38,874 nucleotides of DNA from Bacteroidaceae bacterium (GTDB lineage: Bacteria > Bacteroidota > Bacteroidia > Bacteroidales > Bacteroidaceae). Both the position numbers and the translations under genes were made by a program. Shown here one piece after another: positions 10,200 to 36,809 of the stretch. The notes under the pieces are model-generated. The model did not search any database, was not told the DNA's origin, and worked only from the letters and a program-made list of their open reading frames with translations. The DNA lies in NCBI GenBank assembly GCA_017470425.1, contig JAFUYT010000002.1, forward strand, positions 1 through 38,874, read 5' to 3'. The first letter of the stretch is position 1. Each line of letters opens with the position of its first letter.

Positions 10200-11252
10200 T
10201 CAGGGAATGATGAACTGGATGTGCTCGGGCAGCAGGCCGATTTCGAGCGGGGCGTGTGCGGAGTCGAGCACGAGGCCATCGACGCTGACGGCGCTGTTCG
10301 ATATATCCTCGAAGCGGATGCGGCGCGTGGTGCGGTACGGGCGCACTTTCTCATGGTTCAGGAACTGACCCGTGAACAGCAGTCGGATGCCCTCCATGAG
10401 TTGCAGGACGGCGGGTTGTGAGACGATGCTCACGTCGAGGCTCCCATTGTAGGGCACTGCGCTGGGCGTCTGCCCATAGCCGCGGCAGTTCCCCACGCAG
10501 ACATTCATCACTCGCTGGTCAATCGTGTCTTCGTTGACGCGGAGACGGACGTGCTGCTCCATGCGCTGGAACAGCAGGAGCACCATGCTGGCGAAGTAGG
10601 AGAGGGTGGCCAGACCGAGCACGCGGCGTGTCTTGTAGCGCAGACGCATAATGTTCGCGGCCAGACCGATGTTCACGCAGTTCAGGAAGAAGCGCTGCTG
10701 GAGGGGGAGCTCGGCGGACGAACCGCCGGGAATGGAGCCGAGGGGGGATGGGGTGGGGCTGGGGGCAGGTGACTCGGCATAGCGGAGGTAGCCGACATCG
10801 ACGGCGCGGAGGCGGTGGGCGATGAGGGCGCGGAGGGTGGCTTCATCGTCGTCCTCGCTGAAGCCCCAATAGGTGGCGAAGTCATTGCCGCGGCCGTTGG
10901 GAATCAGTCCGATGGCCACGCGGCGCCGCACCTCGTCCCCAAGCGACAGCATCCCGTTGAGGGCTCTGTTGAGTGCCGAGTCGCCACCTACGATGATGAG
11001 TGTCTCGTAGCCGTTCTGGCAGAGCATCTTTGCCAGACGCTCCACGCTGTCTGCCCCCTCGCTCTGCACGAAGTCGTAGGCGACCCCATACTGGTCGAGC
11101 AGTTCCTTGATACGTTCCCAGCGCTTCTGCGAACGATGTACGCCCTGCTTCGGACAATAGATGATGGCCCAGCGTGAAGTGGAAGACCCGCCTCCCCGCT
11201 CCTCCCTTGTAGGGAGGAGAGTAGTTACTTGTGCAAATTGGCTATTATCCAT
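10200..11252 (-). CDS. Diacylglycerol/lipid kinase-like protein
   Basis: The 350-residue protein belongs to the DAGK catalytic superfamily (lipid or sphingoid-base kinases). IIVGGDSALNRALNG (87-100) is the GGDGT-type ATP loop with Ser in place of the Gly after Asp. IPNGRGNDFA (117-126) is the second nucleotide motif. The N-terminus (1-26, including LLPTREERGGGSS) is not family sequence: it is translated from the hairpin arm and core of a palindromic element that also supplies the start codon. A second low-complexity insert (about 160-185, ESPAPSPTPSPLGS) is encoded by a GC-rich stretch at about 10690-10775. It is last in an operon after miaA; gap 27 nt. Confidence 0.85.
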   Translation of the reverse strand: MDNSQFAQVTTLLPTREERGGGSSTSRWAIIYCPKQGVHRSQKRWERIKELLDQYGVAYDFVQSEGADSVERLAKMLCQNGYETLIIVGGDSALNRALNGMLSLGDEVRRRVAIGLIPNGRGNDFATYWGFSEDDDEATLRALIAHRLRAVDVGYLRYAESPAPSPTPSPLGSIPGGSSAELPLQQRFFLNCVNIGLAANIMRLRYKTRRVLGLATLSYFASMVLLLFQRMEQHVRLRVNEDTIDQRVMNVCVGNCRGYGQTPSAVPYNGSLDVSIVSQPAVLQLMEGIRLLFTGQFLNHEKVRPYRTTRRIRFEDISNSAVSVDGLVLDSAHAPLEIGLLPEHIQFIIP

Positions 11253-11319
11253 ATAAGAAAAACATTACTTTGAAGGTAATTACTCCCCTCCCTCACAGGG
11301 AGGGGTAGGGGGGAGGGTC
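11185..11319 (-). mobile_element. Composite palindromic element, copy 1 (miaA/lipid kinase junction)
   Basis: The 135-bp unit is bounded by GACCC and GGGTC. Arm 1 (11285-11305) is a 9-bp hairpin CCCCTCCCT-cac-AGGGAGGGG; arm 2 (11199-11219) is a 9-bp hairpin CTCCTCCCT-tgt-AGGGAGGAG in opposite orientation. The AT-rich core (about 11220-11280) contains, on the minus strand, TTACCTTCAAAGTAAT, which matches the core of copy 2. The miaA stop codon lies at one arm, and the start codon and leader of the lipid kinase lie in the core and other arm. No transposase is present; a MITE- or REP-like nature is inferred. Confidence 0.65.
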
Positions 11320-12278
11320 TGTATGATTTCTTGGACAATGAGGTCCTTGGGTCGCGTGGCATCTATCCAATGGATCTCGACGCCGCGGCGCTCCATGCCC
11401 CGGAAGTAGGTCATTTGGCGCTTGGCGAACTGGTGGATGGCGATTTCGAGTTGGCGCACCATCTCGTCGTAGGTGAGCTCGCCGGTGAGGTAGAGCGTCA
11501 GGTAGCGGTATTCGAGGCCGTAGCTGATGAGTGCTTCAGCAGGGATGCCGCTGTCGAGCAGGCGCTGCACTTCCTCGAGCATGCCTTCGGCGAGACGCTT
11601 ATGGAGCCGCGCCGTGATGCGCTTGCGGCGCAGCTCACGGGGGATATCGAGCCCGAAGGTCTGCGAGCTGATGTCGGGGAAGGGCTGTGTCTCGTCGATG
11701 TGGTGCTCGCGGTAGTACTCCTCGATCTCGATGGCTCGGATGGCGCGGCGGGCAGTATCTACGTCCGTCGTGTTGTGGAGGCGTTTGTAGGTGGCCAGCA
11801 GCGCCGTCAGTTCCTCCAGCGACTTGCCCTCCAGACGCTCGCGCAATGCGGCGTTCACGGGCACCTCCACCAGTTTGTAGGCACGCAGCACACTCTCGAT
11901 GTACAGCCCCGTGCCGCCGCAGAGGATTGTCTTACGTGCGCGCGAACATATATTATTATATGCGCGAAGGAAGTCACGCTGGAATTCAAAGACCGAGTAC
12001 TTGGTGCCAGCGTCGGCGATGTCGATGAGGTGGTAGGGAATGTGGATGGGTTCTTGGACAATGCAAGCGGCAGAGCCGAGCGCAGGGCGAGCGGTGAGTG
12101 GTTCATGAACCGTATAGTCCGACAGATCCTTGCCTGTGCCGATGTCCATTCCGCGGAACACCTGACGCGAGTCGGCGCTGATGATCTCAGCGTCGCCGAG
12201 CCGTGCCGCCAGCAGCGTAGCCACTGCTGTCTTACCGCAGGCGGTTGGTCCCAGAATGGTAATCATCGGACAACTCAT
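11280..12278 (-). CDS. miaA: tRNA dimethylallyltransferase
   Basis: The 332-residue enzyme adds a dimethylallyl group to A37 of tRNAs that read U-starting codons. The P-loop is GPTACGKT (10-17); IISADSRQVFRGMDIGTGK is the tRNA/acceptor motif. A short extra segment (HEPLTARPALGSAACIVQ) precedes IPYHLIDI. The last dozen residues, TLPPTPPCEGGE, are translated from a hairpin arm of the composite element and end at its edge. The ATG at 12278 is chosen; 12266 is equally possible. The start abuts a 7-bp repeat array that fills the whole gap to the upstream gene. Confidence 0.94.
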   Translation of the reverse strand: MSCPMITILGPTACGKTAVATLLAARLGDAEIISADSRQVFRGMDIGTGKDLSDYTVHEPLTARPALGSAACIVQEPIHIPYHLIDIADAGTKYSVFEFQRDFLRAYNNICSRARKTILCGGTGLYIESVLRAYKLVEVPVNAALRERLEGKSLEELTALLATYKRLHNTTDVDTARRAIRAIEIEEYYREHHIDETQPFPDISSQTFGLDIPRELRRKRITARLHKRLAEGMLEEVQRLLDSGIPAEALISYGLEYRYLTLYLTGELTYDEMVRQLEIAIHQFAKRQMTYFRGMERRGVEIHWIDATRPKDLIVQEIIQTLPPTPPCEGGE

Positions 12279-12283
12279 AACTA

Positions 12284-12367
12284 TCAACTGTCAACTATCA
12301 ACTGTCAACTATCAACTATTAACTGTCAACTATCAACTGTCAACTATCAACTGTCAATTTTCAATTC
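12284..12367 (-). repeat. 7-bp tandem repeat array, 12 units
   Basis: Twelve contiguous heptamers: ten of TCAACTG/TCAACTA (one TTAACTG), then TCAATTT and TCAATTC. On the minus strand the units read YAGTTGA. The stop codon TGA (12363-12361) of the upstream NPCBM gene is in the first unit, and miaA begins 6 nt after the last. Because the period is 7, stop codons appear in all three frames. Confidence 0.92.
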
Positions 12368-14607
12368 CCCTTCTTTCTCACCTTCATGTCGTAAAGCACA
12401 TACTGCCCTGAGCGGACGTCGCCGCACTCGAGCCAGAACATGAGCTGGTGGCATTTGCGGATGGGTACGGTATAGGTGGTGGGCTTCATCTCGTTAGAGA
12501 CCATAAATTCACCGACTTTCACCTGATCGGCGAAGACGTCGAGGCGCACGGGAGGTGCCTTGCCATCGCCGAAGAGGTCGGTGCCAGGATCTACGTAAGG
12601 CTGCTTACAGGCGACGGTGAACGTACATTCATCGTATTCGCCATAGGGGTTGAAGGCTGCTGCCGACGACTGCTTGCCACCACCGCTGAAGAGGGAGAGG
12701 AGGCCACCAGTGAGGGGGCCGGAGACACCGCCGGTCGTGCCCGTGTGGGCACTCACGTCGCTGCCGGAGACGCTGGAGCCGACGCCCGTGAGGAACATGA
12801 AGACAGCACCCATGGGTGTGATGTTCTCCAAGGCGGGCGGAATGTTGGTCTCGAGCATGACGCCCTTGTAGATCTTCGTGCCGTCGTGCATCTGGAAATA
12901 GCGACGCTGCGAGCCACCGTTCTGAAAGCAGTCGTTGAAGTCGAAGTTGGTGAGTACACTCAGGTAGCGCCCTACATAGTGGTAGTAGGGAGCCTTGCAG
13001 AGGTCAATGAGGTCGGCCTCGGGCGGACACTCGGGCTTGGGGTGCTGGAAGAGGTCGTTCTCGACCACCTCGCCGCGATAGAGCACCACGTCGCCGATGC
13101 CGAAGTAGCTGTCCCGCTGCTGCATGTTGCCGGGCTTGGCGAAGGTGAGCGTACGGCATTTGTTGAGGGGGATGGTGAAGCGCTGGTTGGGCCAGGTGAC
13201 GTGGATGACGGTGTCGAGCACAACCTTGCCGTCGCAGTAGATGCGGATGTCATCGTCGCACTGGGTGCGGCGCTTGGTGAGGGCACCTACGGTGAAGGTC
13301 ATGTAGTCGAACTCTCCTGCGAGGTCATATTTATAGTATGCGGAGATGTTATCGTCGAAGAGCGTCTTGCCGCTCGTCAAGATGAAGCCTTCGGAGAACT
13401 GCTCGCCACCCATCGAGAAGGTGATGTAGTCGCTCTCCCCGTCGAAGACGGAGTTCTCGAAGGAGGCCATGCCCTGCACGGAGTAGGGCTTGATGTTGGA
13501 GACGAGTTTGCAGACGTCGGGCAACTTGGAGAGCCGCCCCTTGGAAGCGTTGATGACGCCCGCCGTGGGCAGTGCTGCGGTGTAGCTGGGCGGGTAGGCG
13601 AAGATGTTGACACATGCGAAGCGGATGCCGCCCAGGATGCGGCTGTCCTCATCGATGCTGTGGAAGGAAATCTTGTTGACACCGGCCACGTCGAGCACCA
13701 CCTGCTCGGCGAGGTCTTGCTGCGTGAGGCGCTTCTCATAGATAATCTTGCCGTCGGCTTTCACGGTGAGCCAGCCTGTGGCGGCACTGGCCTGGTTGTC
13801 GCCGGGGCCAATGATGAAGGAGACCTTATCGTATTTCTTCTGCAACCAGAAGTAGGCCCATGCCTCATTGTTGCCGGCGAGGGCCTGGTCGGCAGTAAAC
13901 TGCAGGCCAGTCTTGTACTCCACACGGTTGATGCTGAAGCTCTCTTCCTTACGGATACCTTTGACGTCGGTGCGTTTGGTGATGGGGTGTACCCATCCGG
14001 AGTGGCGGATGAAGTGGGGCCACAACTGTCCTACGAGCTGCACGCGTCCGTTGGAGGGGATGCTGCGTAGCGGATCGCCGCTGGGCTTATAGGGCTGTCC
14101 AGCCTTCCACAGCTTGACGGAGCCGAGGGCCAGGTTCGTCTCGCCCTTGGGAATATCGAAGCGTAGCTGGCGGGCACCCTTGATGTCTGCTACCACCTCC
14201 TGCGGTGCGTCGTGGTTCCAGATGACTTTATCGACGATTCGTTTGCCGTCGGCCTTCAGGGTAAAGATGCAGTTGTGCTCGTCGGAGGCGGAATTGGGTG
14301 AGTCGGGTCCCACGACAAAGCTGATCTTCTCGTAGCCCGCAGGGATGTCGAAGACGGCGTAGCCCGGTGTGTTGCTGCTGATGAGTCCGCCGCGGCCGGA
14401 GCTAAGCGTGAAGCCACCTTTATATTTATAGATGGCAATCTCCATCACACCGTCGCCCTTGGTGGGGTAGGCCCGGTAGCCGCGCTCCTCAGTGGGCTTA
14501 AAGGCGTCGGTGAGGTAGGTCTGTGCTTGTGCGGCCAGCGTCGTCAGCAGACACAGGGCTACGAGTGTTATTTGGGTGCCAGTTTTCAGTAAATGATTCG
14601 TAGTCAT
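12361..14607 (-). CDS. Secreted protein of four NPCBM-like modules
   Basis: The 748-residue protein has a signal peptide ending LAAQAQ, so it is exported to the periplasm or surface. Four divergent copies of one beta-sandwich pattern follow: about 60-168 (KISFVVGP, LKADGKRIVD), 232-337 (KVSFIIGPGD, VKADGKIIYE), 405-515 (YMTFTVGAL, IYCDGKVVLD) and 575-745 (CTFTVACK, VFADQVKVGE). This core (F-x-V-G-P then ADGK-I) resembles the NPCBM fold, a putative carbohydrate-binding module. The fourth copy has a Gly/Ser insert at about 606-655. No catalytic domain is visible. It is divergent from the 14730 operon and upstream of miaA. The NPCBM assignment is by pattern only. Confidence 0.65.
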   Translation of the reverse strand: MTTNHLLKTGTQITLVALCLLTTLAAQAQTYLTDAFKPTEERGYRAYPTKGDGVMEIAIYKYKGGFTLSSGRGGLISSNTPGYAVFDIPAGYEKISFVVGPDSPNSASDEHNCIFTLKADGKRIVDKVIWNHDAPQEVVADIKGARQLRFDIPKGETNLALGSVKLWKAGQPYKPSGDPLRSIPSNGRVQLVGQLWPHFIRHSGWVHPITKRTDVKGIRKEESFSINRVEYKTGLQFTADQALAGNNEAWAYFWLQKKYDKVSFIIGPGDNQASAATGWLTVKADGKIIYEKRLTQQDLAEQVVLDVAGVNKISFHSIDEDSRILGGIRFACVNIFAYPPSYTAALPTAGVINASKGRLSKLPDVCKLVSNIKPYSVQGMASFENSVFDGESDYITFSMGGEQFSEGFILTSGKTLFDDNISAYYKYDLAGEFDYMTFTVGALTKRRTQCDDDIRIYCDGKVVLDTVIHVTWPNQRFTIPLNKCRTLTFAKPGNMQQRDSYFGIGDVVLYRGEVVENDLFQHPKPECPPEADLIDLCKAPYYHYVGRYLSVLTNFDFNDCFQNGGSQRRYFQMHDGTKIYKGVMLETNIPPALENITPMGAVFMFLTGVGSSVSGSDVSAHTGTTGGVSGPLTGGLLSLFSGGGKQSSAAAFNPYGEYDECTFTVACKQPYVDPGTDLFGDGKAPPVRLDVFADQVKVGEFMVSNEMKPTTYTVPIRKCHQLMFWLECGDVRSGQYVLYDMKVRKKGN

Positions 14608-14632
14608 GGCTCGTTTTGAGTTTATCTGTGCG

Positions 14633-14640
14633 CAAATGTA
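14633..14640 (-). promoter_or_regulatory. -7 element of the NPCBM-miaA-lipid kinase operon
   Basis: The minus strand reads TACATTTG, 26 nt before the ATG at 14607. No good -33 element is visible at 20 nt. Confidence 0.55.
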
Positions 14641-14663
14641 CAAAAAAAATCGATGTGAGATGC

Positions 14664-14691
14664 TTGTTTCATGAAAAAATCACTATCTTTG
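14664..14691 (+). promoter_or_regulatory. Promoter of the MORN/Sel1/SH3b operon
   Basis: TATCTTTG at 14684-14691 matches TAnnTTTG. A TTG at 14664-14666 gives a short 17-nt spacer. It lies about 45 nt from the divergent NPCBM promoter, so both units could share regulators. Confidence 0.6.
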
Positions 14692-14729
14692 CCACAAAAT
14701 CATCATTTACCTGATAAAACCGACAAACT

Positions 14730-16364
14730 ATGGCAACAGTATGTTATATCAATGTTTATAATAGTCATGTCGATCGCGGAGCCACGGTGACCAGCGTTCC
14801 CATTGAGCACTACGAAGTCGATGAAGGAGACATCAAGGTGGGCGAGCCGCTGCCTAAGCTCAAGTGCAGCTCCCCCGTCGTGACCGCCTACGACGGGCAG
14901 CAGCTCACGCTGGAGCTGCGCGGCAAGTCGTTCACCATCAAGGTGGGCGAGGAGGTGGAGATCGACAGCTCCGAGCATCCTGTGGGCATGGGCGTCTATA
15001 TCCGCAGCTGCTACTGCGTAAAGCTCATCGGCAAGGAACTCATCTACAAAGGCGGCTGGCAGCTGGGCGACACAATCCTGCAGAAGCTGGAAGGGCCTAT
15101 TGGTAGCGGCGAGGTGTGGTACCCCAATGGCGACCACTTCAAGGGTGCCTTCCACCTGAGCTATGCCAGCATCAACGGGCCTGCCTACGCTGCCGACGGT
15201 CGCTACGACTTTGCCGACGGCTCATGGATTGAGCGGGCTTGGATACACACCTCCAAGGACAAGGAGCCGCAGTGGTGGGGCCTGCATGGCGTGTTCCGCA
15301 TCCAGCGACCCAAGCTGCACCCCGACTATCCCTCGTTCGACACCCCCGATTCCATCGCCATGTTCCTGCATGGCGGCAGGCGCTACGGCTTCGAGCTGTT
15401 CCTGGGCGAGAAGCCTTGGGTCAGAGAGTGGTACGCCGGCGACCGCGTCGTGCGCTACAGCGAACCCGACGAGCTGTTCCAGTACGAGGTGGTGGATTAC
15501 GAGATTGACGAGACCAGCCGCGTGGATTGCACCACGCTCCGGCTCACGTTGAAGGACGGCAACAAGGCCTATCGCATTGAGCAACAGGGCGGTCGCTACG
15601 TGGCCAATCAGTATAACGGCCATGTCTTTGAACCTTCCACCCACGTCACCGTAGAGTTACCTAACGGCGACATCCTGGACCACTACGGCGACGATGTTCG
15701 CGACTTCCAACCCTACGACGGCTACGTCGATGTGTATTGTGCCAAGACGGGCATGAGCCGCAAAGAGCATTGGAAGAAAGGCGAACTCGTGGAGGCACGG
15801 GAGTGGAAGCGCGATGTCCGTGCAGCCACCTCGGTGACACTGCCCGACCCCACAGGACTCGACGGCAAACTGGAGGCCAAGGTGTGGGAAGACGGGCACA
15901 TCGAATACGGATACAAAGAGTGGGTGTATGATGGTGAGGTTAAGAACAACCGTCCCGATGGCGAGGGCGTGCTCGTGGGGGACCGCCGTCATGGTGAGCG
16001 CCGCTACGAAGGCAGCTTCATCGATGGCGTATATGTCAGTGACGAGGAGGAGTACGAAGGGGAAATCACGCTGCACGTCAGGAGCGGTCACAAGTCATGG
16101 ACGGTCTATAGCGATGGCGAATGGGAATATCAGGAGGAGGACATCGTGGCCAAGCGCGGACGACTGAATCTCGACGGCTTCTGGGGCTACGAGATCACCA
16201 GCATCAAGCGTGACTGCATTACCATCGAGTACTACGAAAACAAGTACGAACTGCGTCCTGACCAGCCTCTGCATCTCTACAAAGAGATTGAGGGCCGCGA
16301 GTACAGCGACGGCTGCGTCTATGACGGCGATGACTACAAGCTGGAGCTGACGTGGAAGAACTAA
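14730..16364 (+). CDS. Large MORN-like repeat protein, function unknown
   Basis: I do not recognise this 544-residue protein as a known family. It has no signal peptide or membrane segment and is acidic. MORN-like units occur at about 105-165 (GSGEVWYPNGDHFKGAF) and 396-435 (YDGEVKNNRPDGEGVLV, RRYEGSFIDGVY). Between them is a long beta-rich region with many Tyr, Trp and Asp-Gly turns, suggesting degenerate MORN-type hairpins throughout. MORN repeats usually bind lipids or act as protein scaffolds. It is first of five same-strand genes; its stop TAA is immediately followed by the ATG of the next gene, implying coupled translation. Confidence 0.7.
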   Translation: MATVCYINVYNSHVDRGATVTSVPIEHYEVDEGDIKVGEPLPKLKCSSPVVTAYDGQQLTLELRGKSFTIKVGEEVEIDSSEHPVGMGVYIRSCYCVKLIGKELIYKGGWQLGDTILQKLEGPIGSGEVWYPNGDHFKGAFHLSYASINGPAYAADGRYDFADGSWIERAWIHTSKDKEPQWWGLHGVFRIQRPKLHPDYPSFDTPDSIAMFLHGGRRYGFELFLGEKPWVREWYAGDRVVRYSEPDELFQYEVVDYEIDETSRVDCTTLRLTLKDGNKAYRIEQQGGRYVANQYNGHVFEPSTHVTVELPNGDILDHYGDDVRDFQPYDGYVDVYCAKTGMSRKEHWKKGELVEAREWKRDVRAATSVTLPDPTGLDGKLEAKVWEDGHIEYGYKEWVYDGEVKNNRPDGEGVLVGDRRHGERRYEGSFIDGVYVSDEEEYEGEITLHVRSGHKSWTVYSDGEWEYQEEDIVAKRGRLNLDGFWGYEITSIKRDCITIEYYENKYELRPDQPLHLYKEIEGREYSDGCVYDGDDYKLELTWKN

Positions 16365-16874
16365 ATGATTGATTATCCTATGGCAGAAGAACTAAGAAAG
16401 ATTGTCAAGTGCTTCTACAAGGGTGAGGTCGATGCCCAGGGGCTGCCCCACGGCAAGGGCGAATTGCACTACATCGTGGAGAGAGACCCGTCGGAGCAGC
16501 TCCTCTTTGACGACCAGCACAACCTGCGCTACAGGGGCGAGTTCTGTCATGGCCTGCGCCAGGGAGAGGGCGACCTGCACGTCATGGGCACGGGCTACAA
16601 CCCTGTGAGCGAATCCGAGTGGTACTCCGAGGGCGACTACGACAGCTGCGGCCGGTTCGCAGGTCCGGCACACAAACCCGGCACATGGAGCCGCTACGTC
16701 CGCGTGTGGTACCCCTGTTTCGAAGGCACCTGGCAGAACGACCTTCCCCTGAAGCCGCGTTGGGGCGAGGGCAGCGCAGAGGAGCGTGTGTCGGAAATGG
16801 GATGGCAATATGTCCGCGAAACTGCCAGGGATGCCATCGCGACCTTGCCATTTGAAATGAACAACGACGATTAA
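16365..16874 (+). CDS. Small MORN-repeat protein
   Basis: The 169-residue protein begins directly after the preceding stop codon; an internal ATG at 16380 is an alternative start. Two clear MORN-like units are present: YKGEVDAQGLPHGKGELHY (about 18-36) and YRGEFCHGLRQGEGDLHV (about 51-68), followed by a weaker FEGTWQNDLPLKPRWGEG. It has no signal peptide. Its similarity to the larger neighbour suggests the two act in the same complex or arose by duplication. Biochemical function is unknown. Confidence 0.7.
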   Translation: MIDYPMAEELRKIVKCFYKGEVDAQGLPHGKGELHYIVERDPSEQLLFDDQHNLRYRGEFCHGLRQGEGDLHVMGTGYNPVSESEWYSEGDYDSCGRFAGPAHKPGTWSRYVRVWYPCFEGTWQNDLPLKPRWGEGSAEERVSEMGWQYVRETARDAIATLPFEMNNDD

Positions 16875-16889
16875 AAAACACCTCTCCGT

Positions 16890-17465: not shown

Positions 17466-17484
17466 ATTATTATTCATATTGCTT

Positions 17485-22564: not shown

Positions 22565-22697
22565 AAAGCTTAAATTAGAAGTGAATAATATAGTAATTTG
22601 TATGATTTCTGCACATTTCGGGGGCTAAGGTACAAATAATTTTCGGCTTCGCGGCATTTCCTGCGATTTTTTCATGTCTCATGCAGAAAATAATCCC

Positions 22698-22705
22698 TAT
22701 CTTTG
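22698..22705 (+). promoter_or_regulatory. -7 element of the GH5 gene
   Basis: TATCTTTG matches TAnnTTTG and lies 23 nt before the ATG at 22729. It falls downstream of an in-frame ATG at 22681, which decides for the later start. Confidence 0.65.
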
Positions 22706-22728
22706 CCACAAACTCACAAGGAAAAGCG

Positions 22729-27975: not shown

Positions 27976-28078
27976 AACTACCCCGTTGAGTAGCAGGTTA
28001 CGTACTGCGCGTGAGCGTCGCACGGCATCTCTCTCAACATAAGACTATCATTCCCTCCCACTTCATGGGGTAGTTACT
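27976..28078 (+). other. Structured 3' untranslated region of galE
   Basis: The 293-nt gap after galE holds no ORF that I can support. AACTACCCC (27976-27984) pairs with GGGGTAGTT (28067-28075), GTTGAG (27985-27990) with CTCAAC (28033-28038), and TGCG (28006-28009) with CGCA (28019-28022), so nested folding is possible. The right part (28053-28078, CCCTCCC then GGGGTAGTTACT) resembles one arm and core edge of the composite element at 11185 (GTAGTTACT also occurs there). It may be a decayed copy or a small RNA; neither is proven. Confidence 0.35.
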
Positions 28079-29015: not shown

Positions 29016-29036
29016 GAGTTGATAGTTGATAGTTGA
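29016..29036 (-). repeat. 7-bp tandem repeat in the ispE leader
   Basis: Three units on the plus strand (GAGTTGA, TAGTTGA, TAGTTGA), or TCAACTA-type in the ispE sense. They lie between the ispE -7 element and its ATG, ending 4 nt before the start codon. Confidence 0.75.
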
Positions 29037-29048
29037 TTTTTGGTGTGC

Positions 29049-29079
29049 CAAAGTTAAGAAAAGATGCTTATGCGGGCAA
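29049..29079 (-). promoter_or_regulatory. -33/-7 promoter of ispE
   Basis: On the minus strand TTG (29079-29077), a 20-nt spacer and TAACTTTG (29056-29049). The 7-bp repeats fall inside the resulting leader. Confidence 0.75.
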
Positions 29080-29138: not shown

Positions 29139-29169
29139 TTGCGCACGCGCAGAGAAAAGTGTACCTTTG
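29139..29169 (+). promoter_or_regulatory. -33/-7 promoter of the M6 protease gene
   Basis: TTG at 29139-29141, a 20-nt spacer and TACCTTTG at 29162-29169. The chosen ATG is 20 nt downstream. Upstream in-frame ATGs (from 29064) precede or overlap the promoter and are rejected. Confidence 0.78.
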
Positions 29170-29189
29170 CCCACCTTTTATGCGAACTT

Positions 29190-30854
29190 ATGAAGAAATT
29201 CTATCTCCTTTTATGCTTCTGGTGCATCGTTGGTGCGCTCTTGGCAGTGCCGGCACAGCGCATCTTGCGGCAGGTACAGCTGGCCGACGGCAGTGTGGTG
29301 GAGGCCATGCTGCTGGGCGATGAACACTTTGCCTGGTATGAGACAATAGACGGCCGCATCCTGGAAGAGACGGAGGCGGGCTATGTCGTGGCCGCGGAGA
29401 CGCCCGACGGTGTCCGCCACAGAGCACGACAAGTGCTGTGCGCCGGCGTACGCCACCTCGGTTCACAGGCATCGGCACCCCTGCCTTCAATAGGCTCGCC
29501 GCGCATCCCAGTCATCCTTGTTGAATTTCAGGACTCTGTCTTCCACGTTGGACAGACCGAGGAAGAACAGAAGAATTTTTTCGACCTCTTCTGCAATGGC
29601 ACACGCGAGGGCAACCTCTACAAGGATCACGGCAGCTATGGGGCTATCCGCGACTATTTCTCCGACCAGAGCCGTGGACAGTTCACGCCGGATTTCGTGG
29701 TGCTCGGCACCGTGAAGCTCGACAAGCCGGAGTCTGAATATGGAAAACACAACGGCAATAACAAAGATGTGAACTTCCCGGGCTTCTGCCGCGACGCCAT
29801 CACCAAGGCGATGGACAAGTTCTCCGATATCGATTGGATGCAGTTCAACAACCGCGGAAGAAATCAGGTGGATATGGTGTTCCTCGTCTTCGCCGGCTGT
29901 GGTGAGGCCAACGGAGGACATGACGACACGCTGTGGCCCAAGTGGTCACCGCTGAACATGACGATCGGTGGCGTGACCTTCCGCTCCGCACTCTGCGGCA
30001 ATGAGATGCATCTGGCTCCCAGCAACAAGACCTACAATGGCGTGCGTCCCGAGGGCATTGGCATCCTCTGCCACGAGATGAACCACGCCCTGGGACTCCC
30101 CGACTTCTACGATGTCAACTATAAGAATTTCGGCATGGACCTTTGGAGCATCATGGACTACGGACAGTATGCCGGTGCCGGCTACCAGCCTATCGGCATG
30201 AACGCCTACGAGCGAGAGTTTATGGGGTGGGAGACGATGGAGAAACTTACCCAATCGGGGTGGCTGACGCTGGAACCCACGGCGACGACGGGCAAGGGCT
30301 ACAAGATTGTCAATGCCGAGAACCCCGATGAATACTACATCATCGAGAACCGTCAACCAGTAGGGTGGGACGAGGCTGCCTGTAACTTCGGACATGGCCT
30401 GCAAGTGACTCACGTCGATTTCGATTCCAACCGATGGAGCAACAACTCGGTCAACACCGATGGCAATCATCAGCGCATGACCATCATTGCAGCGAACAAT
30501 CGCTATATCGGCACCTGCGTCACGTCGGCTACTGCCGCAGATCTGATCAAGACCTGGAACGGCAACTGCTATCCCTTTGAGACAAACGACTCGCTGACAG
30601 CCAATTCTGTACCTGCGGCCACCGTCTTCACCGCCGCCGGTTTCATGCATAAGGACCTGAACTCCATCCGCGAGAACGACGACAAGACCGTGACCCTCTA
30701 CTTTGGTAATGACTTCACGGTCGGTGTGTCCGAGGTTGCCTCCGAGATGCCTGCCCGCAGTCAGAGCGTCTTCGACCTCGCCGGACGGCGCGTACTGGGC
30801 GCTCCCCGTAGTGGCCTTTACATCGTTGATGGACGGAAGGTGGCCATCCCATAG
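29190..30854 (+). CDS. Secreted M6-family metalloprotease
   Basis: The 554-residue protein has a signal peptide (MKKFYLLLCFWCIVGALLA). The catalytic domain holds HEMNHALGLPD (295-305), the HExxHxxxxxD zinc site of M6 (immune inhibitor A-like) proteases, with a Met-turn at SIMDYG (about 320-325). IPVILVEFQD and DQSRGQFTPDF upstream are typical of M6 N-terminal regions. The last 30 residues, SVFDLAGRRV through GLYIVDGRKV, look like the C-terminal signal of type IX secretion substrates or a reduced version of it. It probably digests extracellular protein. A mannose guanylyltransferase gene follows after 35 nt. Confidence 0.9.
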   Translation: MKKFYLLLCFWCIVGALLAVPAQRILRQVQLADGSVVEAMLLGDEHFAWYETIDGRILEETEAGYVVAAETPDGVRHRARQVLCAGVRHLGSQASAPLPSIGSPRIPVILVEFQDSVFHVGQTEEEQKNFFDLFCNGTREGNLYKDHGSYGAIRDYFSDQSRGQFTPDFVVLGTVKLDKPESEYGKHNGNNKDVNFPGFCRDAITKAMDKFSDIDWMQFNNRGRNQVDMVFLVFAGCGEANGGHDDTLWPKWSPLNMTIGGVTFRSALCGNEMHLAPSNKTYNGVRPEGIGILCHEMNHALGLPDFYDVNYKNFGMDLWSIMDYGQYAGAGYQPIGMNAYEREFMGWETMEKLTQSGWLTLEPTATTGKGYKIVNAENPDEYYIIENRQPVGWDEAACNFGHGLQVTHVDFDSNRWSNNSVNTDGNHQRMTIIAANNRYIGTCVTSATAADLIKTWNGNCYPFETNDSLTANSVPAATVFTAAGFMHKDLNSIRENDDKTVTLYFGNDFTVGVSEVASEMPARSQSVFDLAGRRVLGAPRSGLYIVDGRKVAIP

Positions 30855-30889
30855 TTTTTCTATCACACACATAAACGCCCTATCCACTT

Positions 30890-31948
30890 ATGAACCCGAA
30901 CAATCATCTCGTCATTATGGCCGGCGGCATCGGCAGCCGCTTCTGGCCTATGAGCACGCCCGACCGCCCCAAGCAGTTCATTGATGTGCTCGGTTGCGGA
31001 CGCACGCTGATTCAGCTCACGATGGATCGCTTTGCCGACGTCTGTCAGCCCGAAAATGTATGGATAGTCACCAGCGCACGCTATGCCGACCTCGTGCGGG
31101 AGCAGCTGCCCGAGGTGCCTGCAGATCATATACTGCAAGAGCCCTGCCGCCGCAATACAGCCCCCTGCATCGCCTATGCCAGCTGGCGCATCAAGGCGCT
31201 GAATCCGCAGGCGAACATCGTTGTGTCGCCCGCAGATCACGTGGTGATGGATGTGGCAGAGTTCCGGCGCGTCATCAATTCGGCGTTGAACTTCACGGCA
31301 GAGACTGACAGCATCGTCACCCTCGGCATGAAGCCCACGCGCCCCGAGACGGGCTACGGCTACATACAGGCTGACCTCTCTGTGGCCAGCGCCCGCAACA
31401 AGGAGGTCTATCGCGTCGATGCCTTCCATGAGAAGCCCGAGCTCGCAGTCGCTGAGAAGTACATCAAGCGCAAGAACTTCTTCTGGAACAGCGGCATCTT
31501 TCTCTTCCGCTGCTCTACCATTGTGAACGCCCTCCGCATCTACGCCCCCGAGATCTCTGCTGTCTTCGAGCCTCTGCTTCCTGTTTATGGCTCGCCTGCA
31601 GAGCAGGAGACCATCGACCGTGAGTTCCCGAAGTGTCCCTCCATCTCCATCGACTACGCAGTGATGGAGAAGGCCGAGGAGATCTTCGTCTTCCCCGCGT
31701 CCTTCGGATGGAGCGACCTCGGCACATGGGGCTCTCTCCACGAACAGAGCCAGCGCGACGGCTATGGCAACGTAGCCATCGGCTCCCGCATTGAACTTCA
31801 CGACACGGCCAACTGTATCGTCCACACGACACAAGAGCGCCGTGTCATCGTCCAGGGGCTCGACGGCTACATCGTGGCGGAGAAGGACAACACGCTCCTC
31901 ATCTGCCGGCGCGACGAGGAACAGCGCATCCGGCAATTCATAGAATAG
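30890..31948 (+). CDS. manC: Mannose-1-phosphate guanylyltransferase
   Basis: The 352-residue enzyme makes GDP-mannose from mannose 1-phosphate and GTP. VIMAGGIGSRFWPMSTPDRP (8-27) is the nucleotidyltransferase signature and PKQF follows at once; FHEKPELAVAEKYI and FFWNSGIFLF are the sugar-binding motifs. The C-terminal isomerase domain of bifunctional ManC proteins is absent, as is usual for Bacteroidales. It feeds GDP-mannose and GDP-fucose to surface glycans. Its TAG stop codon is also the first three bases of a 7-bp repeat array. Confidence 0.94.
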   Translation: MNPNNHLVIMAGGIGSRFWPMSTPDRPKQFIDVLGCGRTLIQLTMDRFADVCQPENVWIVTSARYADLVREQLPEVPADHILQEPCRRNTAPCIAYASWRIKALNPQANIVVSPADHVVMDVAEFRRVINSALNFTAETDSIVTLGMKPTRPETGYGYIQADLSVASARNKEVYRVDAFHEKPELAVAEKYIKRKNFFWNSGIFLFRCSTIVNALRIYAPEISAVFEPLLPVYGSPAEQETIDREFPKCPSISIDYAVMEKAEEIFVFPASFGWSDLGTWGSLHEQSQRDGYGNVAIGSRIELHDTANCIVHTTQERRVIVQGLDGYIVAEKDNTLLICRRDEEQRIRQFIE

Positions 31949-31973
31949 TTGACAGTTGATAGTTGACAATTAA
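31946..31973 (+). repeat. 7-bp tandem repeat array at the manC stop codon
   Basis: Four units: TAGTTGA, CAGTTGA, TAGTTGA, CAATTAA. The first three bases are the manC stop codon. This is the same YAGTTGA unit and the same orientation to the upstream gene as at 12284-12367. Confidence 0.85.
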
Positions 31974-31992
31974 ATCATCGTAGAATATATTT

Positions 31993-32802
31993 ATGAGCAA
32001 GCAAGAACAAGAAGAATACCAGCTGGAATCCATCCTCGACCTGAACTCCTCCAACGTGTGGACGGTCGGCGAGAATGAGATTGTGGATCTGTGGGAAAAG
32101 GAGATGAAGGACGAGAGCTTCCCGCCCTACGAGGAGAAGCTCCTCAATATCATCCGCCTCGCATACGAAGTCGTGCATTTCGATAACGGCAACGAGCGTG
32201 AGAGCGCCAAATACACGGGCGGCGATTGGGCCACCTTCCCCCGTTGCGATCTTCGTAAGGGTGTCGTCGCCATCCGTAAGCGCAACATCTCCCGTCTGAC
32301 GGATCTCAGCTACGAGAATATCAAGCATATCACTGCTGCTACGCTCCTGGAGCTCATCGACCGCAACTTCGGCGGCGGTTGGGAGAGCATCCCGCTCTCG
32401 CTGAAGGATATCATCGAGAGTGGCTTCGAGATCAGCACTACGACACTGCCTGCCTCGCGACTTCACATGAAGGGCGGCACCCTCGACCGTAAGGTCGCCG
32501 ATGGCTTCGAGGTCCTCGAAGTGGAGAAGGGCACGTGGATAGAGGCCATCTTCGCCAAGAAGAAGGCACCCGTCACGAAGTTGCGGATGCTCATGGATCA
32601 GGAGTACGATGAGGAGGGCAACCGCGTCCATCGTGAGGACGACGAAGAAGAGGACGACCGCGACGATCGCGACGAGGAGGACGAGGTCGAAGAGGACGTA
32701 CAGCCCTCCGAGGACGACGAGACCTTCTACTCCAGCTATGCGCCCGAGGCTGATGTCAAGGACGAGGACGACGACACCTCGGAACTCTCCGTGCTCGAAT
32801 AA
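31993..32802 (+). CDS. Unknown protein with an acidic tail
   Basis: I do not recognise this 269-residue protein. Residues 1-200 look folded and soluble, with no signal peptide or membrane segment; ENEIVDLWEKEMKD and LEVEKGTWIEAIFAKKKAPV are distinctive stretches. Residues about 204-269 are extremely acidic (REDDEEEDDRDDRDEEDEVEE) and should be disordered, as in nucleic-acid-mimicking or chaperone-like tails. It is flanked by manC (44 nt, with the repeat array between) and the symporter fusion gene (6 nt), so it is probably co-transcribed with the latter. Confidence 0.6.
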   Translation: MSKQEQEEYQLESILDLNSSNVWTVGENEIVDLWEKEMKDESFPPYEEKLLNIIRLAYEVVHFDNGNERESAKYTGGDWATFPRCDLRKGVVAIRKRNISRLTDLSYENIKHITAATLLELIDRNFGGGWESIPLSLKDIIESGFEISTTTLPASRLHMKGGTLDRKVADGFEVLEVEKGTWIEAIFAKKKAPVTKLRMLMDQEYDEEGNRVHREDDEEEDDRDDRDEEDEVEEDVQPSEDDETFYSSYAPEADVKDEDDDTSELSVLE

Positions 32803-32808
32803 TCGGCG

Positions 32809-34569
32809 ATGGCGCTGACCGTGATCCTCGTCGTGGCCTACGGCGCGCTGCTCGCCGTCGTGTCGCGTCTGACGGCACGTCGTGCGGACAACGATACATT
32901 CTTTAGTGGAGGGCGACGCTCACCGTGGTGGGCCGTCGCCTTCGGTATGTTGGGGGCTTCGCTCAGCGGCGTCACCTTCGTGAGCGTGCCCGGCATGGTG
33001 TGTGCTGCGGACATGACATACCTGCAGATGTGCCTCGGTTTCATCCCCGGCTACATCGCTGTGGCCTTCCTCCTCCTGCCTGTCTATTACCGTCTGGGGC
33101 TCACCAGCATCTACGCCTACCTTGACCGCCGCTTCGGTCTCACCGCCTATCGCACCGGTGCTTCCTTCTTTCTGCTCTCGAAGCTGCTGGGCGCTGCCGT
33201 GCGCCTCTACCTCGTCTGCCTGATTCTGCAGCGCCTCGTCTTCGATGCCCTCGGCCTCCCTTTCTGGCTGTCGGCCGTCATCATCCTGGTGCTTATCTGG
33301 CTCTACACCCACCGTGGCGGCATCGGCACCATCGTATGGACCGACTGCCTGCAGACGGCCGTCCTCCTCGTGGCCCTCGTGCTCATCCTTGCGGCGCTGC
33401 TGCATGCAGAAGGGTGGGGCATCGGCGAGGCTGTCCGGCAGGTGCGTGCCAGCAGAATGAGCCGCATCTTCGAATTCAGCGACTGGCAGAGCCGTCAGTA
33501 CTTTTGGAAGCAGTTCCTCAGCGGAGCCTTCATCGTGGTGGTGATGACTGGCCTCGACCAGGACATGATGCAGAAGAACCTGACCTGCCGCACCCTCCGT
33601 GCCTCGCAGAAGAACATGATCGTCAACGGACTCCTCTACGTGCCCGTGAACCTCCTGTTCCTTGGCCTCGGCGTGCTGATGTACCTCTTCGCTGCGCACC
33701 GCGCCATCGCGCTCCCGCCCTCCGGCGACGAAGTGCTGCCGTTGCTCTGTGCCGGTGGTTGGCTGGGGCAGGGTGCTCTCGCCTTCTTCACCCTCGGCAT
33801 TGCTGCCGCAGCGCTCTCCAGTGCAGACAGCGCGCTCACGGCTCTCACCACCAGCACCGTCTGCGACCTCTTCCAGCGTCCCGATGACGAGCGCCTGCGG
33901 CGCCGTGTCCACATCGCCATGAGCCTTTTCCTGCTCGCCCTCATCCTCGCCTTCCGCGCCCTCAACAGCACCAGCGTCATTGATGCTGTTTACGTCATCG
34001 CTTCCTACACCTATGGTCCCCTCCTCGGCCTCTTCGCCTTCGGTCTCTTTGCTCCCGCACGCCTTCGCCCCGTGCCCCGCGTCATCCCCTTCATCTGCCT
34101 CGCATCCCCAGTCCTCTGCTACCTCCTTTCTCTTCTCTCTGCCGCCCTCTGGCAATACCATTTCGGCTACGAACTCCTCCTCCTCAACGGTGCCCTTACT
34201 GCCCTTGGCCTCTGGCTGAGCTGTCCGCGTTCTCATGATGCCCCGGCGACGAAGCAGCCGAAAGTGTATCTGATCAAGAGGCATCCCGGCGGACGGGCTT
34301 TCCTGGCCATCTGCCTGTTTGGTGCGGTGTTCTCCGTCCGGCCGCTGACGGCGGTGGAGCTCAACCACGAACGCATCCATGCAGCGCAGCAGCGCGAGTT
34401 GCTGTACGTGCCGTTCTTCATCTGGTATGTGGTGGAGTGGCTCTTCCTTTGGGCGAAGTACGGTGATAGGATGAAGGCGTATGAGCATATCCGCTTCGAG
34501 AAGGAGGCGTACAGGCATCAGGGGGACTTGCAGTATCTAAGCCGCAGGAAACATTATCGTTACACGTGA
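32809..34569 (+). CDS. Sodium/solute symporter fused to a HExxH-containing domain
   Basis: Residues 1-475 form a multi-spanning SSS-family transporter: FFSGGRRSPWWAVAFGMLGASLS is the start of the core, GIGTIVWTDCLQT and ALSSADSALTALTTSTV are family motifs, the latter near the sodium site. About 12-13 hydrophobic segments are visible. After a linker with Lys/Pro (475-495) comes a second domain (about 496-586): a hydrophobic helix, then LNHERIHAAQQREL with HERIH at 520-524, another hydrophobic stretch (YVPFFIWYVVEWLFLW), then RFEKEAYRHQ. The HExxH motif suggests a zinc site, possibly a membrane peptidase. The substrate is unknown. The fusion has no internal stop or start gap. Confidence 0.8.
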   Translation: MALTVILVVAYGALLAVVSRLTARRADNDTFFSGGRRSPWWAVAFGMLGASLSGVTFVSVPGMVCAADMTYLQMCLGFIPGYIAVAFLLLPVYYRLGLTSIYAYLDRRFGLTAYRTGASFFLLSKLLGAAVRLYLVCLILQRLVFDALGLPFWLSAVIILVLIWLYTHRGGIGTIVWTDCLQTAVLLVALVLILAALLHAEGWGIGEAVRQVRASRMSRIFEFSDWQSRQYFWKQFLSGAFIVVVMTGLDQDMMQKNLTCRTLRASQKNMIVNGLLYVPVNLLFLGLGVLMYLFAAHRAIALPPSGDEVLPLLCAGGWLGQGALAFFTLGIAAAALSSADSALTALTTSTVCDLFQRPDDERLRRRVHIAMSLFLLALILAFRALNSTSVIDAVYVIASYTYGPLLGLFAFGLFAPARLRPVPRVIPFICLASPVLCYLLSLLSAALWQYHFGYELLLLNGALTALGLWLSCPRSHDAPATKQPKVYLIKRHPGGRAFLAICLFGAVFSVRPLTAVELNHERIHAAQQRELLYVPFFIWYVVEWLFLWAKYGDRMKAYEHIRFEKEAYRHQGDLQYLSRRKHYRYT

Positions 34570-34616
34570 GCCGCTCCCTTTCCGGAAGGGGCCGGGCTCG
34601 GAAAAAGTCAAATAAA

Positions 34617-34648
34617 TTTGGTCATTCGCCCGCTTATTTGTACCTTTG
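34617..34648 (+). promoter_or_regulatory. -33/-7 promoter of map
   Basis: TTTG at 34617-34620, a 20-nt spacer and TACCTTTG at 34641-34648. The ATG at 34658 is only 9 nt after the -7 element, so the mRNA should be almost leaderless. A TTG inside the -7 element cannot be the start. Confidence 0.82.
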
Positions 34649-34657
34649 CGCCCACTT

Positions 34658-35524
34658 ATGAATGGAAAGAAGAAGAAACTGAGGTGGTCTGTCATCAAAG
34701 GTCAGGAACTGACGGAGATGGACCGCATCATCTTAGCAGCGCAGGAGCGCGGCAAGACGGTGCCTTCGCGCGAGCTGATCAAGACGCCCGAGCAGATCGA
34801 GGGCATCCGTCGCGCAGGCGTGGTCAACACGGGCATCTTGGATATGCTTACGACAGAGATCCACGCGGGCATGACCACGCAGGCCATCGATGACCTCGTG
34901 GCGGAATATACGGCTGCGCACGGTGCCACGTCGGCCTGCCTCGGCTACGAGGGCTTCCCGCGGTCGTGCTGCACGAGTGTCAACGAGGTCGTCTGTCATG
35001 GCATCCCCAACGACTGGGAGGTGCTGCGCAATGGCGACATCATCAACGTAGATTGCACCACGATTCTTGACGGCTACTACGCCGATGCCTCACGGATGTA
35101 CATCGTGGGTGGTAAGACCACGAAGGCGAAGCAGAAGCTCGTCGATGTGGCGTGGGAGTGCCTGAAGATTGGCGAGGAGGTGTGCTCCCGGCCGTACGTC
35201 TATGTCGGCGACATCGGCAACGCCATCCAGAAGCACGCCCACAAGCACGGCTTCAGCGTCGTCCGTGACCTGGCCGGGCATGGCGTGGGACTTGAGTTCC
35301 ACGAAGAGCCTGACATCGACCACTATGGCAAGAAGGGCACTGGGATGCTCCTCGTGCCGGGCATGGTGTTCACCATCGAGCCGATGATCAACACGGGCAC
35401 CTACGAGGTGTTCTGCGATGAGGATGATGGCTGGACGGTTGTCAGCGAGGATGAACTGCCAAGCGCTCAGTGGGAACATACTTTTGTGATGACGGAACAC
35501 GGGGTGGAAGTGCTGACGCATTAG
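34658..35524 (+). CDS. map: Methionine aminopeptidase, type I
   Basis: The 288-residue enzyme removes the initiator methionine from new proteins. The five metal ligands are visible: Asp in NVDCTTILDG, Asp in YYADASRM, His in LAGHGVGLEFHE, Glu in VFTIEPM and Glu in WEHTFV. The 35 or so residues before the core (KTVPSRELIKTPEQIEGIR) include a short basic start, KKKKLRW, typical of Bacteroidales versions. A composite palindromic element begins 2 nt after the stop codon. Confidence 0.96.
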   Translation: MNGKKKKLRWSVIKGQELTEMDRIILAAQERGKTVPSRELIKTPEQIEGIRRAGVVNTGILDMLTTEIHAGMTTQAIDDLVAEYTAAHGATSACLGYEGFPRSCCTSVNEVVCHGIPNDWEVLRNGDIINVDCTTILDGYYADASRMYIVGGKTTKAKQKLVDVAWECLKIGEEVCSRPYVYVGDIGNAIQKHAHKHGFSVVRDLAGHGVGLEFHEEPDIDHYGKKGTGMLLVPGMVFTIEPMINTGTYEVFCDEDDGWTVVSEDELPSAQWEHTFVMTEHGVEVLTH

Positions 35525-35526
35525 CA

Positions 35527-35684
35527 GACTCTCCCCCCCTCCCTCCCTCCCTATGAGGGAGCGGTTACCTTCAAGAAAAGTAATCATTATTAAGGATTTA
35601 GTGATATTACATAAGATGAAAATAGAATCATCCACTCAAGAACATTCTGCTCCCTCCCTTATAGGGAGGGTGGGGGATGAGGTT
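35527..35684 (+). mobile_element. Composite palindromic element, copy 2 (map/tsaD junction)
   Basis: The unit is about 158 bp. Arm 1 holds the hairpin CTCCCT-atg-AGGGAG (35547-35561) after a C-rich run; arm 2 holds CCCTCCCT-tat-AGGGAGGG (35652-35670) in opposite orientation. The core begins TTACCTTCAAGAAAAGTAAT, closely matching the copy 1 core. The chosen start codon of tsaD (35616) and about its first 20 codons lie inside the element. Confidence 0.62.
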
Positions 35685-36809
35685 TCTATTGTTATCCTCG
35701 GCATCGAATCCTCCTGCGATGACACCAGTGCCGCTGTCATCCGCGATGGTGTGCTGCTGTCGAACGTGACTGCATCGCAGGCTGTGCATGAAGCCTACGG
35801 CGGTGTGGTGCCCGAGCTTGCCTCGCGCGCGCACCAACAGAATATAGTACCCGTAGTGGATCAGGCAATCAAGCGCGCAGGGGTCACGAAGGAAGAGCTG
35901 AGTGCCATCGCTTTCACGCGCGGACCGGGTCTCATGGGCTCCCTGCTCGTAGGGGTGAGCTTCGCCAAGGGACTGGCCGCCTCGCTGGGTATTCCCATGA
36001 TTGATGTGAACCATCTGCAGGGCCACGTGCTGGCGCATTTCATAAAAGAGAGGTCCCTCTCTGACTCCCCCCGTGAGGGGGAGGAATCTAAGTCCTCAGG
36101 AAAACAAACTACTACAATCGCGCCAGCTCTCGAACGTAGTGAGGCTCTCCCCCCCACGGGGGGAGCGGGGAGCGGGACCCCTCCCTTCCCCTTCCTCTGT
36201 CTGCTCGTCAGCGGCGGCAACTCACAGATTGTGCTCGTGAAGGCCTACAACGATATGCAGATTATCGGACAGACCATCGACGATGCCGCGGGCGAGGCCA
36301 TCGACAAGTGCTCCAAGGTCATGGGGCTCGGCTACCCCGGCGGACCCATCATCGACCGTCTGGCACGGCAGGGAAACCCCGAGGCCTTCACGTTTGCCAA
36401 ACCCGCCATTCCCGGCTATGATTACAGCTTCAGCGGCCTGAAGACCTCGTTCCTCTACAATCTGCGTGATTGGCTGAAGGATGATCCTGATTTCATTGAG
36501 CACCACAAGGAAGACCTGGCGGCATCGCTTGAGAAGACCATCGTGGATATCCTCATGAACAAACTGCGCCGTGCTGCCAAGGACTTGAAGATCAAACACG
36601 TTGCTGTGGCCGGTGGCGTCAGCGCCAACACAGGTCTGCGCGAAGCCTTCCGCGACCATGCCCGTCGCTACGGCTGGACCATCTATATCCCCAAATTCAG
36701 TTACACCACCGACAACGCCGCCATGATAGCCATCACGGGCGCCTTCAAATACGCCGACAAGGACTTCTGCCCGATGGAGGCACCGGCATACTCGCGTGGG
36801 ACACTGTAA
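35616..36809 (+). CDS. tsaD: tRNA N6-threonylcarbamoyladenosine transferase TsaD, with element-derived extension and insert
   Basis: The 397-residue Kae1/TsaD protein transfers threonylcarbamoyl to A37 of ANN-decoding tRNAs. VILGIESSCDDTSAA (26-40) is the family start; metal ligands are His133 and His137 (VNHLQGH) and Asp366 (YTTDNAAM); GGVSANTGLR and GNSQIVLVKAYNDM are conserved. Two segments are foreign to the family: residues 1-23 (MKIESSTQEH through DEVS) come from copy 2 of the element, and about 146-189 (RSLSDSPREGEESKSS onward) from copy 3, inserted in frame before PFPFLCLLVSGG. A GTG at 35670 or other in-frame start nearer the core is possible. The gene is probably essential, so the protein must tolerate the insert. 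Confidence 0.93.
   Translation: MKIESSTQEHSAPSLIGRVGDEVSIVILGIESSCDDTSAAVIRDGVLLSNVTASQAVHEAYGGVVPELASRAHQQNIVPVVDQAIKRAGVTKEELSAIAFTRGPGLMGSLLVGVSFAKGLAASLGIPMIDVNHLQGHVLAHFIKERSLSDSPREGEESKSSGKQTTTIAPALERSEALPPTGGAGSGTPPFPFLCLLVSGGNSQIVLVKAYNDMQIIGQTIDDAAGEAIDKCSKVMGLGYPGGPIIDRLARQGNPEAFTFAKPAIPGYDYSFSGLKTSFLYNLRDWLKDDPDFIEHHKEDLAASLEKTIVDILMNKLRRAAKDLKIKHVAVAGGVSANTGLREAFRDHARRYGWTIYIPKFSYTTDNAAMIAITGAFKYADKDFCPMEAPAYSRGTL
36052..36179 (+). mobile_element. Composite palindromic element, copy 3 (inside tsaD)
   Basis: The 128-bp unit is bounded by GGTCCC and GGGACC inverted ends. Arm 1 has the hairpin CTCCCCC-cgtga-GGGGGAG (36065-36083); arm 2 has CTCCCCCC-cac-GGGGGGAG (36147-36165). The arms share the build of copies 1 and 2, but the core lacks TTACCTTCAA. 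It is translated in frame within tsaD. Confidence 0.62.

Follow-up and report, generated by a model that had tools for sequence, protein, structure and literature searches.

The new model that we propose concerns a family of short palindromic units present in a 38,874-nucleotide stretch of DNA (hereafter the window), which is contig C11 of the 2.42-Mb draft genome, 72% complete, of a Bacteroidaceae/Prevotellaceae-type bacterium. These units would be the short, non-autonomous derivatives of a mobile element that ends in palindromes and carries the gene of a DUF559 nuclease. We give this reading a probability of about 0.7; the mobilisation by the nuclease and the translation of the peptides that the units would add to host proteins are both inferred. 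The element would end in inverted repeats (the arms), about 45 nt long and each containing a hairpin, and the full-length copies would hold between them a single gene, coding for a Vsr-like endonuclease of the DUF559 family (PF04480) of about 125 residues. The short units would be satellites that have lost the gene and kept the ends. The DUF559 protein would recognise the hairpin ends and cut the DNA, the repair of the break would then copy the element into new sites, and the nuclease would act in trans on the short copies. At a gene junction, the left arm or its edge would stop the upstream gene, the sequence between the arms (the core) would start the downstream gene, and the open right arm would be translated into an N-terminal tag.

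The exact hairpin CTCCCTNNNAGGGAG, whose loop is 3 nt long, occurs 78 times in the genome and 4 times in the window; the reversed control pattern is absent from the genome, and a version of the pattern with a 5-nt loop gave no match. In the family to which copies 1 and 2 of the window belong, an arm of about 45 nt (roughly GACYCWCCCCC-NNCC-CCTCCCTNNNAGGGAGG-GGAGY-RNTNACYTTT) is followed by a variable, AT-rich core and then by the inverted arm, so that the units possess terminal inverted repeats. The original prediction, made from the window alone, had called for a genome search with a covariance model and a count of the copies; R1, a covariance model of one arm built from 17 arms, recovers at least 148 arms in the genome at E<=0.01 (among the best 150 of 1215 candidates scored). 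Of the 96 clusters that these 148 arms form when gaps under 400 nt are bridged, 46 are single arms, 46 are convergent pairs, two are tandem pairs, two are triplets and none is a divergent pair; the convergent pairs span 121-233 nt in 44 cases and fall outside 100-260 nt in the other two. Arms belonging to the same unit resemble each other more than arms taken across units do (0 of 10000 permutations as high), and some motifs are enriched at the core ends, CAAGA being found in 11 of 37 cores for a shuffled mean of 0.7.

The evidence for the nuclease comes from the stretches in which the arms are widely spaced. Six of them were read, and four, with arms 490-600 nt apart (three in our genome, one in genome G204), contain one intact open reading frame of about 125 residues each. 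Pfam assigns the three own frames and one from genome G270 to DUF559 (PF04480; E 7e-35 to 8e-29), and the G204 frame also matches PF04480. The ends of the full-length DUF559 copies are of the same types as those of the short copies: arms stand on either side of each of the five DUF559 copies in our genome (scores 29-43), and identity to an arm of one of these five reaches 85% or more for 136 of the 148 own arms, the matches being split over four of the five. Across the genus, 31 of the 32 DUF559 genes extracted lie between inverted repeats that score above all 100 shuffles (30 of 31 loci, L266 and L325 being the same locus; L322 tied with its best shuffle and L332 was left out), and control placements of the same geometry lie between such repeats in 4 of 250 and 6 of 171 cases. 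The repeats around DUF559 are hairpin arms whose sequence differs between lineages. Among the 81 genomes of the genus, R1 matches 57 (from 0 arms per genome up to the 76 candidates scored) and DUF559 is present in 53, both being present in 49, arms only in 8, DUF559 only in 4 and neither in 20; by statistics that ignore phylogeny, the two are associated (Fisher p=4e-9, Spearman 0.57; p=0.007 at a threshold of 10 or more arms). The original prediction had noted that no transposase is encoded; none turned up, no general transposase search being made, and the window holds no DUF559 gene, but the full-length copies elsewhere in the genome do encode a nuclease-like protein of this family.

The same arrangement extends to other phyla. 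In a sample of plasmid records from Alphaproteobacteria, Cyanobacteria and Deinococcota (12 of 41, picked for taxon spread), DUF559 lies between palindromic inverted repeats scoring above 200 shuffles in 9 of 12, and the three misses (L341, L343, L347) have G/C palindromes nearby that remain below the score. The whole 602-bp DUF559 element of our genome, used as a query, has no DNA match in plasmids. Five residues (E29, D57, E68, D70 and H74) are invariant across 30 aligned DUF559 sequences, and the DUF559 profile matches PDB 3hrl (8e-29) and the "Mobile intron protein" PDB 3r3p (4e-8), which we take to be a Vsr-like homing endonuclease. A Caulobacter DUF559 protein is described as Vsr-like in passages of PMC12907096. 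It was also observed that some DUF559 domains are not in a gene of their own but form part of long open frames of 356-612 aa that contain other coding sequence as well (L316, L321, L323, L334, L353), and that two Sphingomonas plasmid records have DUF559 genes between sufB and sufC (L345) and with a GatB/YqeY gene on one side and dnaG on the other (L346).

The exact hairpin is found in 54 of 201 genomes of the family, and a longer hairpin, type A, in 9 of 296 genomes of the phylum, with 75 occurrences in our genome and 6 and 5 in the next ones. Since only our genome has many, the type-A arm sequence is narrow in distribution, even if the link between DUF559 and palindromes is wide. Among the viral sequences of IMG/VR one type-A arm pattern gave no match, and a type-B pattern matched five contigs (G+C content 69-73%) with the same kind of palindrome, in none of which a DUF559 gene was found by hidden Markov model. 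These contigs (L246-L250) carry near-identical GACCCACCCCC..CCCCTCCCTNNNAGGGAGGGG palindromes, L246 having seven matches to the hairpin pattern in 12 kb.

The coding frames flanking each unit were scored by a codon model from the same genome, and in all 44 paired units of 100-260 nt the best flanking frames are on the same strand, with a weak score on one flank in two of them (L139 and L185:2493); of the 32 pairs of neighbouring genes that a rough gene caller gives for the window, only 20 are co-directional. Leaving aside L139, L167 (which repeats on a further contig the element sequence of L165) and five units lying within genes, 37 distinct boundary units remain, all of them between co-directional frames. 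The stop codon of the upstream gene is at the left edge in 25 of these 37 and inside the left arm in 10; in 31 an open frame runs from an ATG of the core across the right arm and into the downstream gene in that gene's own frame, against 0 and 0 in the +1 and +2 frames. Every one of the 37 cores contains an ATG (shuffles: mean 24.4, maximum 31), and the last one lies 17-33 nt before the right arm in 28 units. Sixteen of the 31 fusions lack any further ATG, GTG or TTG in the 45 nt that follow the arm; a likely native start lies 4-15 nt after the arm in six units.

Judging from these open frames, about thirty proteins seem to gain an N-terminal tag such as M...TAPSLIGRAGGES. Most tags consist of M, 6-12 residues and TAPSLIGRAGGES, or else of a stretch resembling a signal peptide and then TTPLPTREGQGGGS or TAPSL.., and the proteins that bear them look, by eye and without a database scan, like RimO, TruB, TrpS, Ddl, ProB, ArgB, PurM, PurC, a Sua5-type enzyme, PyrF, SurA and others. 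In other genomes, 15 units have same-strand flanks, some with weak scores; similar tags stand on ValRS-, RecQ- and glycine-dehydrogenase-like proteins, and other units lie inside genes. Because a stop, a start and arms free of stops in the frames used are supplied, the landing of a unit in packed operons, even on overlapping genes, would be harmless to both neighbours, and the insertions would survive selection since neither gene is broken. This harmless design would explain the polarity, the position and the frame together.

Three copies are present in the window, where their host genes and parts are arranged as follows.

11275..11321, minus strand: upstream ("left") arm of copy 1 in gene orientation, R1 55.3 bits; the MiaA open frame ends inside it (..QTLPPTPPCEGGE*)
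11230..11274, minus strand: AT-rich core of copy 1, holding the start codon of the downstream gene (first base 11252)
11183..11229, minus strand: downstream ("right") arm of copy 1, R1 52.0 bits, open as TTLLPTREERGGGS at the N-terminus of the downstream gene
11280..12287, minus strand: upstream neighbour of copy 1, presumably a miaA-like gene, with its stop within copy 1
10200..11252, minus strand: gene downstream of copy 1, which we take to be diacylglycerol-kinase-like (dagK), protein start MDNSQFAQV-[TTLLPTREERGGGS]-STSRWAII
35523..35574, plus strand: left arm of copy 2 (start at 35523 or 35528), R1 28.8 bits, E=0.0007, abutting the TAG stop of the methionine-aminopeptidase-like gene
35575..35640, plus strand: core of copy 2, with the likely tsaD start ATG at 35616; a second in-frame ATG, at 35553, is inside the left arm
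35641..35687, plus strand: right arm of copy 2, R1 43.7 bits, open as SAPSLIGRVGDEVS at the TsaD N-terminus
34646..35524, plus strand: gene upstream of copy 2, assumed to be methionine-aminopeptidase-like (map)
35616..36809, plus strand: tsaD, extended at the N-terminus by copy 2 and carrying 43 inserted internal residues that stem from copy 3
36052..36179, plus strand: copy 3, of the sister family, lying in frame within tsaD, with GGTCCC/GGGACC ends on its two hairpin arms

The original prediction had placed three units at these positions, and the arms and ends listed bear it out. It had treated them as a single family, which holds for copies 1 and 2, both recognised by R1, but copy 3 belongs to a sister family (16 bits, E=0.34); a suspected decayed relative at 28053-28078 was not recovered by R1 at E<=0.5. 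It had located the copies on gene boundaries and inside a gene, which is correct as to position but understates their contribution: by open frames, copy 1 provides MiaA with its C-terminus and stop and then the next gene with its start and N-terminus, copy 2 does the latter for TsaD, and copy 3 is an in-frame insertion in a loop of TsaD. Folded as DNA, copies 1, 2 (as 35523-35672) and 3 each beat all 200 shuffles, with z values of -4.4, -3.1 and -4.0.

Comparison with relatives provides the empty sites that had been called for in support of mobility. At the ftsY-rimO junction the unit is present in 2 of 30 loci of the genus (our genome and G237); L189 is unreadable by the pattern used, and most of the other 27 loci have overlapping or closely spaced genes, for example TAAATG or ATGA fusions. 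As the genes of relatives mostly overlap or abut, arm, core and arm together are extra DNA at this site. Upstream of dagK, inspection of 23 loci revealed arms in the 200 nt before the gene only at our own; some of the 22 arm-free loci have another gene or a longer spacer upstream, and the relative L281 may keep a decayed tag. At map-tsaD the junction is short, or the upstream neighbour a different gene, in many relatives, and L017 has a decayed copy. The closest named relatives by TsaD are the metagenome bins RUI360 (87%) and SRR873602_bin.145 (86%). The NH..SGGNS segment of TsaD measures 72 residues in the window, 35-36 in 68 of 80 named relatives and 38-87 in the other 12, and in the best two solved TsaD matches shown the alignment has two stretches with the insert in the gap that separates them. 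Inserts in the TsaD loop of relatives, read by eye, comprise two-arm inserts of different palindrome families (L017, L034, L060) and solo arms (L016, L055); those at L034:317-490 and L060:3322-3510 are palindromic inserts of other families that this same loop has taken up in other lineages. In-frame copies also lie inside genes that we take to be MurF-, RibD- and ABC-F-like, and L126:1850-1960, inside a presumably cobyric-acid-synthase-like gene, resembles the copy-3 family by eye. The description of the units as a non-autonomous, REP-like (repetitive extragenic palindrome) and apparently mobile family is thus borne out by the many copies, the shared ends, the patchy presence in the genus and the empty sites.

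Several observations weigh against the model. Another possible start lies no more than 45 nt past the arm in 15 of the 31 tagged genes, so the native start may still serve some of them. The core of the surA unit resembles a native signal peptide between two arms, which makes this unit hard to explain by insertion of a whole unit. Cores are no more alike across units than shuffles (best 0.61 vs 0.59, one duplicated contig being left out), hence a recent copying of whole units is not visible, and selection or conversion may be what keeps the arms alike. The arm stems show no covariation in this family, and target duplication does not exceed chance (34 clean-ended units vs shuffled pairs). The association between DUF559 and the arms takes no account of phylogeny; among its exceptions are the 8 genomes with arms and without DUF559, 4 of which have 10 or more arms (61-91% complete), and the 4 genomes with DUF559 and without R1 arms. 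For the arms of 19 foreign DUF559 elements, the number of matching own arms ranges by type from 0 to 102 out of 148, so that the match of the own arms is one of arm types and not a proof of residence. The flanking of plasmid DUF559 was controlled by shuffles alone, not by position.

Some of these points are those expected if the palindromes were solo, the arms moving or being exchanged singly and coming to flank native start regions, with a core made of host DNA. The unrelated cores, the plausible native signal peptide of surA and the single arms in some TsaD loops speak for this explanation; we nevertheless hold it unlikely, because the ftsY-rimO relatives mostly have overlapping or abutting genes without such a core, the two arms of a unit resemble each other more than random pairs do and motifs are enriched at the core ends. 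A comparably low probability is given to a family of miniature inverted-repeat transposable elements (MITEs) moved by a conventional transposase, in which DUF559 would be a passenger caught between the ends. MITE-like inverted repeats are indeed present and a passenger gene would likewise be flanked by arms, but this explanation has to face a target duplication at chance level, the finding of DUF559 as the long open frame in all four units with arms 490-600 nt apart, and its recurrence between repeats in 5 of 5 own, 31 of 32 genus and 9 of 12 other-phyla cases, in spite of repeats that differ between lineages. That ribosomes bypass the in-gene copies, or that these are removed in some other way, so that no peptide is added, is highly improbable: bypass elements are paired hairpins in coding sequence, which the copies resemble, but the in-gene copies that were read keep the frame and contain no stop, and bypass would need neither.

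The two other explanations would make the units either a classical repeat family or no mobile element at all, and we consider both very doubtful. In a REPIN family, whose REP palindromes are paired and owe their movement to a RAYT (Y1/HUH) transposase, two inverted palindromes would surround a variable centre as they do here, and some REPs lie in frame inside genes or supply stop codons, according to passages of PMC3733652. The RAYT domain PF01797, however, has no match in our draft genome nor in two more complete ones, G078 and G110 (94% and 92% complete), which have 44 and 48 exact hairpins, and it is found in 7 of 13 carriers vs 6 of 15 non-carriers; RAYT was therefore rejected as the partner enzyme, its domain not following the repeats. 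The REPIN-type GTAG is found in the 13 nt beside the stem in just 10 of 86 arms, and the arms flank DUF559 genes rather than RAYT. The REP-like reading of the original prediction is incomplete in this respect, as it accounts neither for the full-length DUF559 copies nor for the stop and start codons brought by the short ones. A cis-regulatory operon RNA (attenuator or 5' leader), selected and not mobile, would agree with the strict gene polarity, the conserved hairpins and the similar placing of the start codon. It has little chance of being right, since the tested sites are empty in nearly all relatives, the units are patchy in the genus and also lie inside genes, Rfam gave no match in the window at the gathering threshold, and the stems lack covariation.

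Some further repeats were observed in the window. A 14-nt tandem repeat of the AACTGTCAACTATC type lies at 12258-12378, 29017-29057 and 31945-31973, with inverted copies elsewhere in the window, and other low-complexity repeats precede tsaD in some relatives. A perfect 26-bp inverted repeat with a 2-nt spacer, possibly a terminator, lies at 604-657. Two 29-nt stretches, 14674-14702 and 22688-22716, are 90% identical and contain TATCTTTGCCAC, a motif that we take to resemble Bacteroidetes promoters.

With a lesser confidence, on balance in its favour, we would extend the palindrome-ended DUF559 element to a widespread and undescribed class of mobile elements of which the DUF559 proteins would be the enzymes. 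Each would consist of lineage-specific hairpin repeats, one Vsr-like nuclease gene and a nuclease-less swarm acting as a portable stop-leader-start junction that rewrites dozens of N-termini, and the class would span at least Bacteroidota, Alphaproteobacteria, Cyanobacteria and Deinococcota. If so, it would explain many G/C-rich palindromic repeats of obscure origin in those phyla, and it would offer a candidate function for the DUF559 family, whose name still says "unknown function", as well as a candidate engine for palindromic repeats so far without one. The element would spread through essential operons, its own stop and start codons opening to it the tightest part of the genome, the junctions between essential genes. 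Under the model, tRNA synthetases, tRNA-modifying enzymes and biosynthetic enzymes should bear new N-termini that can be measured, and the start sites and N-terminal extensions annotated in these genomes would often be element-derived.

In the open PMC literature, covered largely by title and abstract, we found no report linking DUF559 to palindromic repeats and no described mobile element that supplies start codons. Several known systems nonetheless share part of the picture. With the homing endonucleases to which we assign PDB 3r3p, the element shares the homology of its nuclease (4e-8) and, in our model, a spread driven by breaks; it differs by a gene set between hairpin inverted repeats and by its many short satellites, and no intron or intein was noticed, no search aimed at them being made. 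With MITEs it shares terminal inverted repeats, shortness, many copies and longer coding relatives with ends of the same type, but its target duplication is not above chance and its coding gene is nuclease-like and not a transposase. The Rickettsia palindromic elements (RPE) and the CGTC repeats are likewise in-frame palindromes in functional genes, as described in parts of PMC3733652; here CGTC/GACG stands beside the stem in 0 of 86 arms, the arms are paired, and the units occupy mainly junctions, with a new stop and start. The PINSR of Prevotella intermedia is also a high-copy, lineage-specific Prevotella repeat, but it is 188 bp long, intergenic and without terminal inverted repeats, according to PMC4755523. 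The closest likeness in anatomy is to the REP/REPIN-RAYT systems, as portrayed in excerpts of PMC3733652 and PMC8049555: short inverted palindrome pairs around a variable centre, many copies and no autonomy. The element works like the REP-RAYT and MITE-transposase pairs but is set apart by what defines them, RAYT, GTAG and target duplication; its partner gene is DUF559, it supplies a start codon and an N-terminal tag, and its boundary units all lie between co-directional frames.

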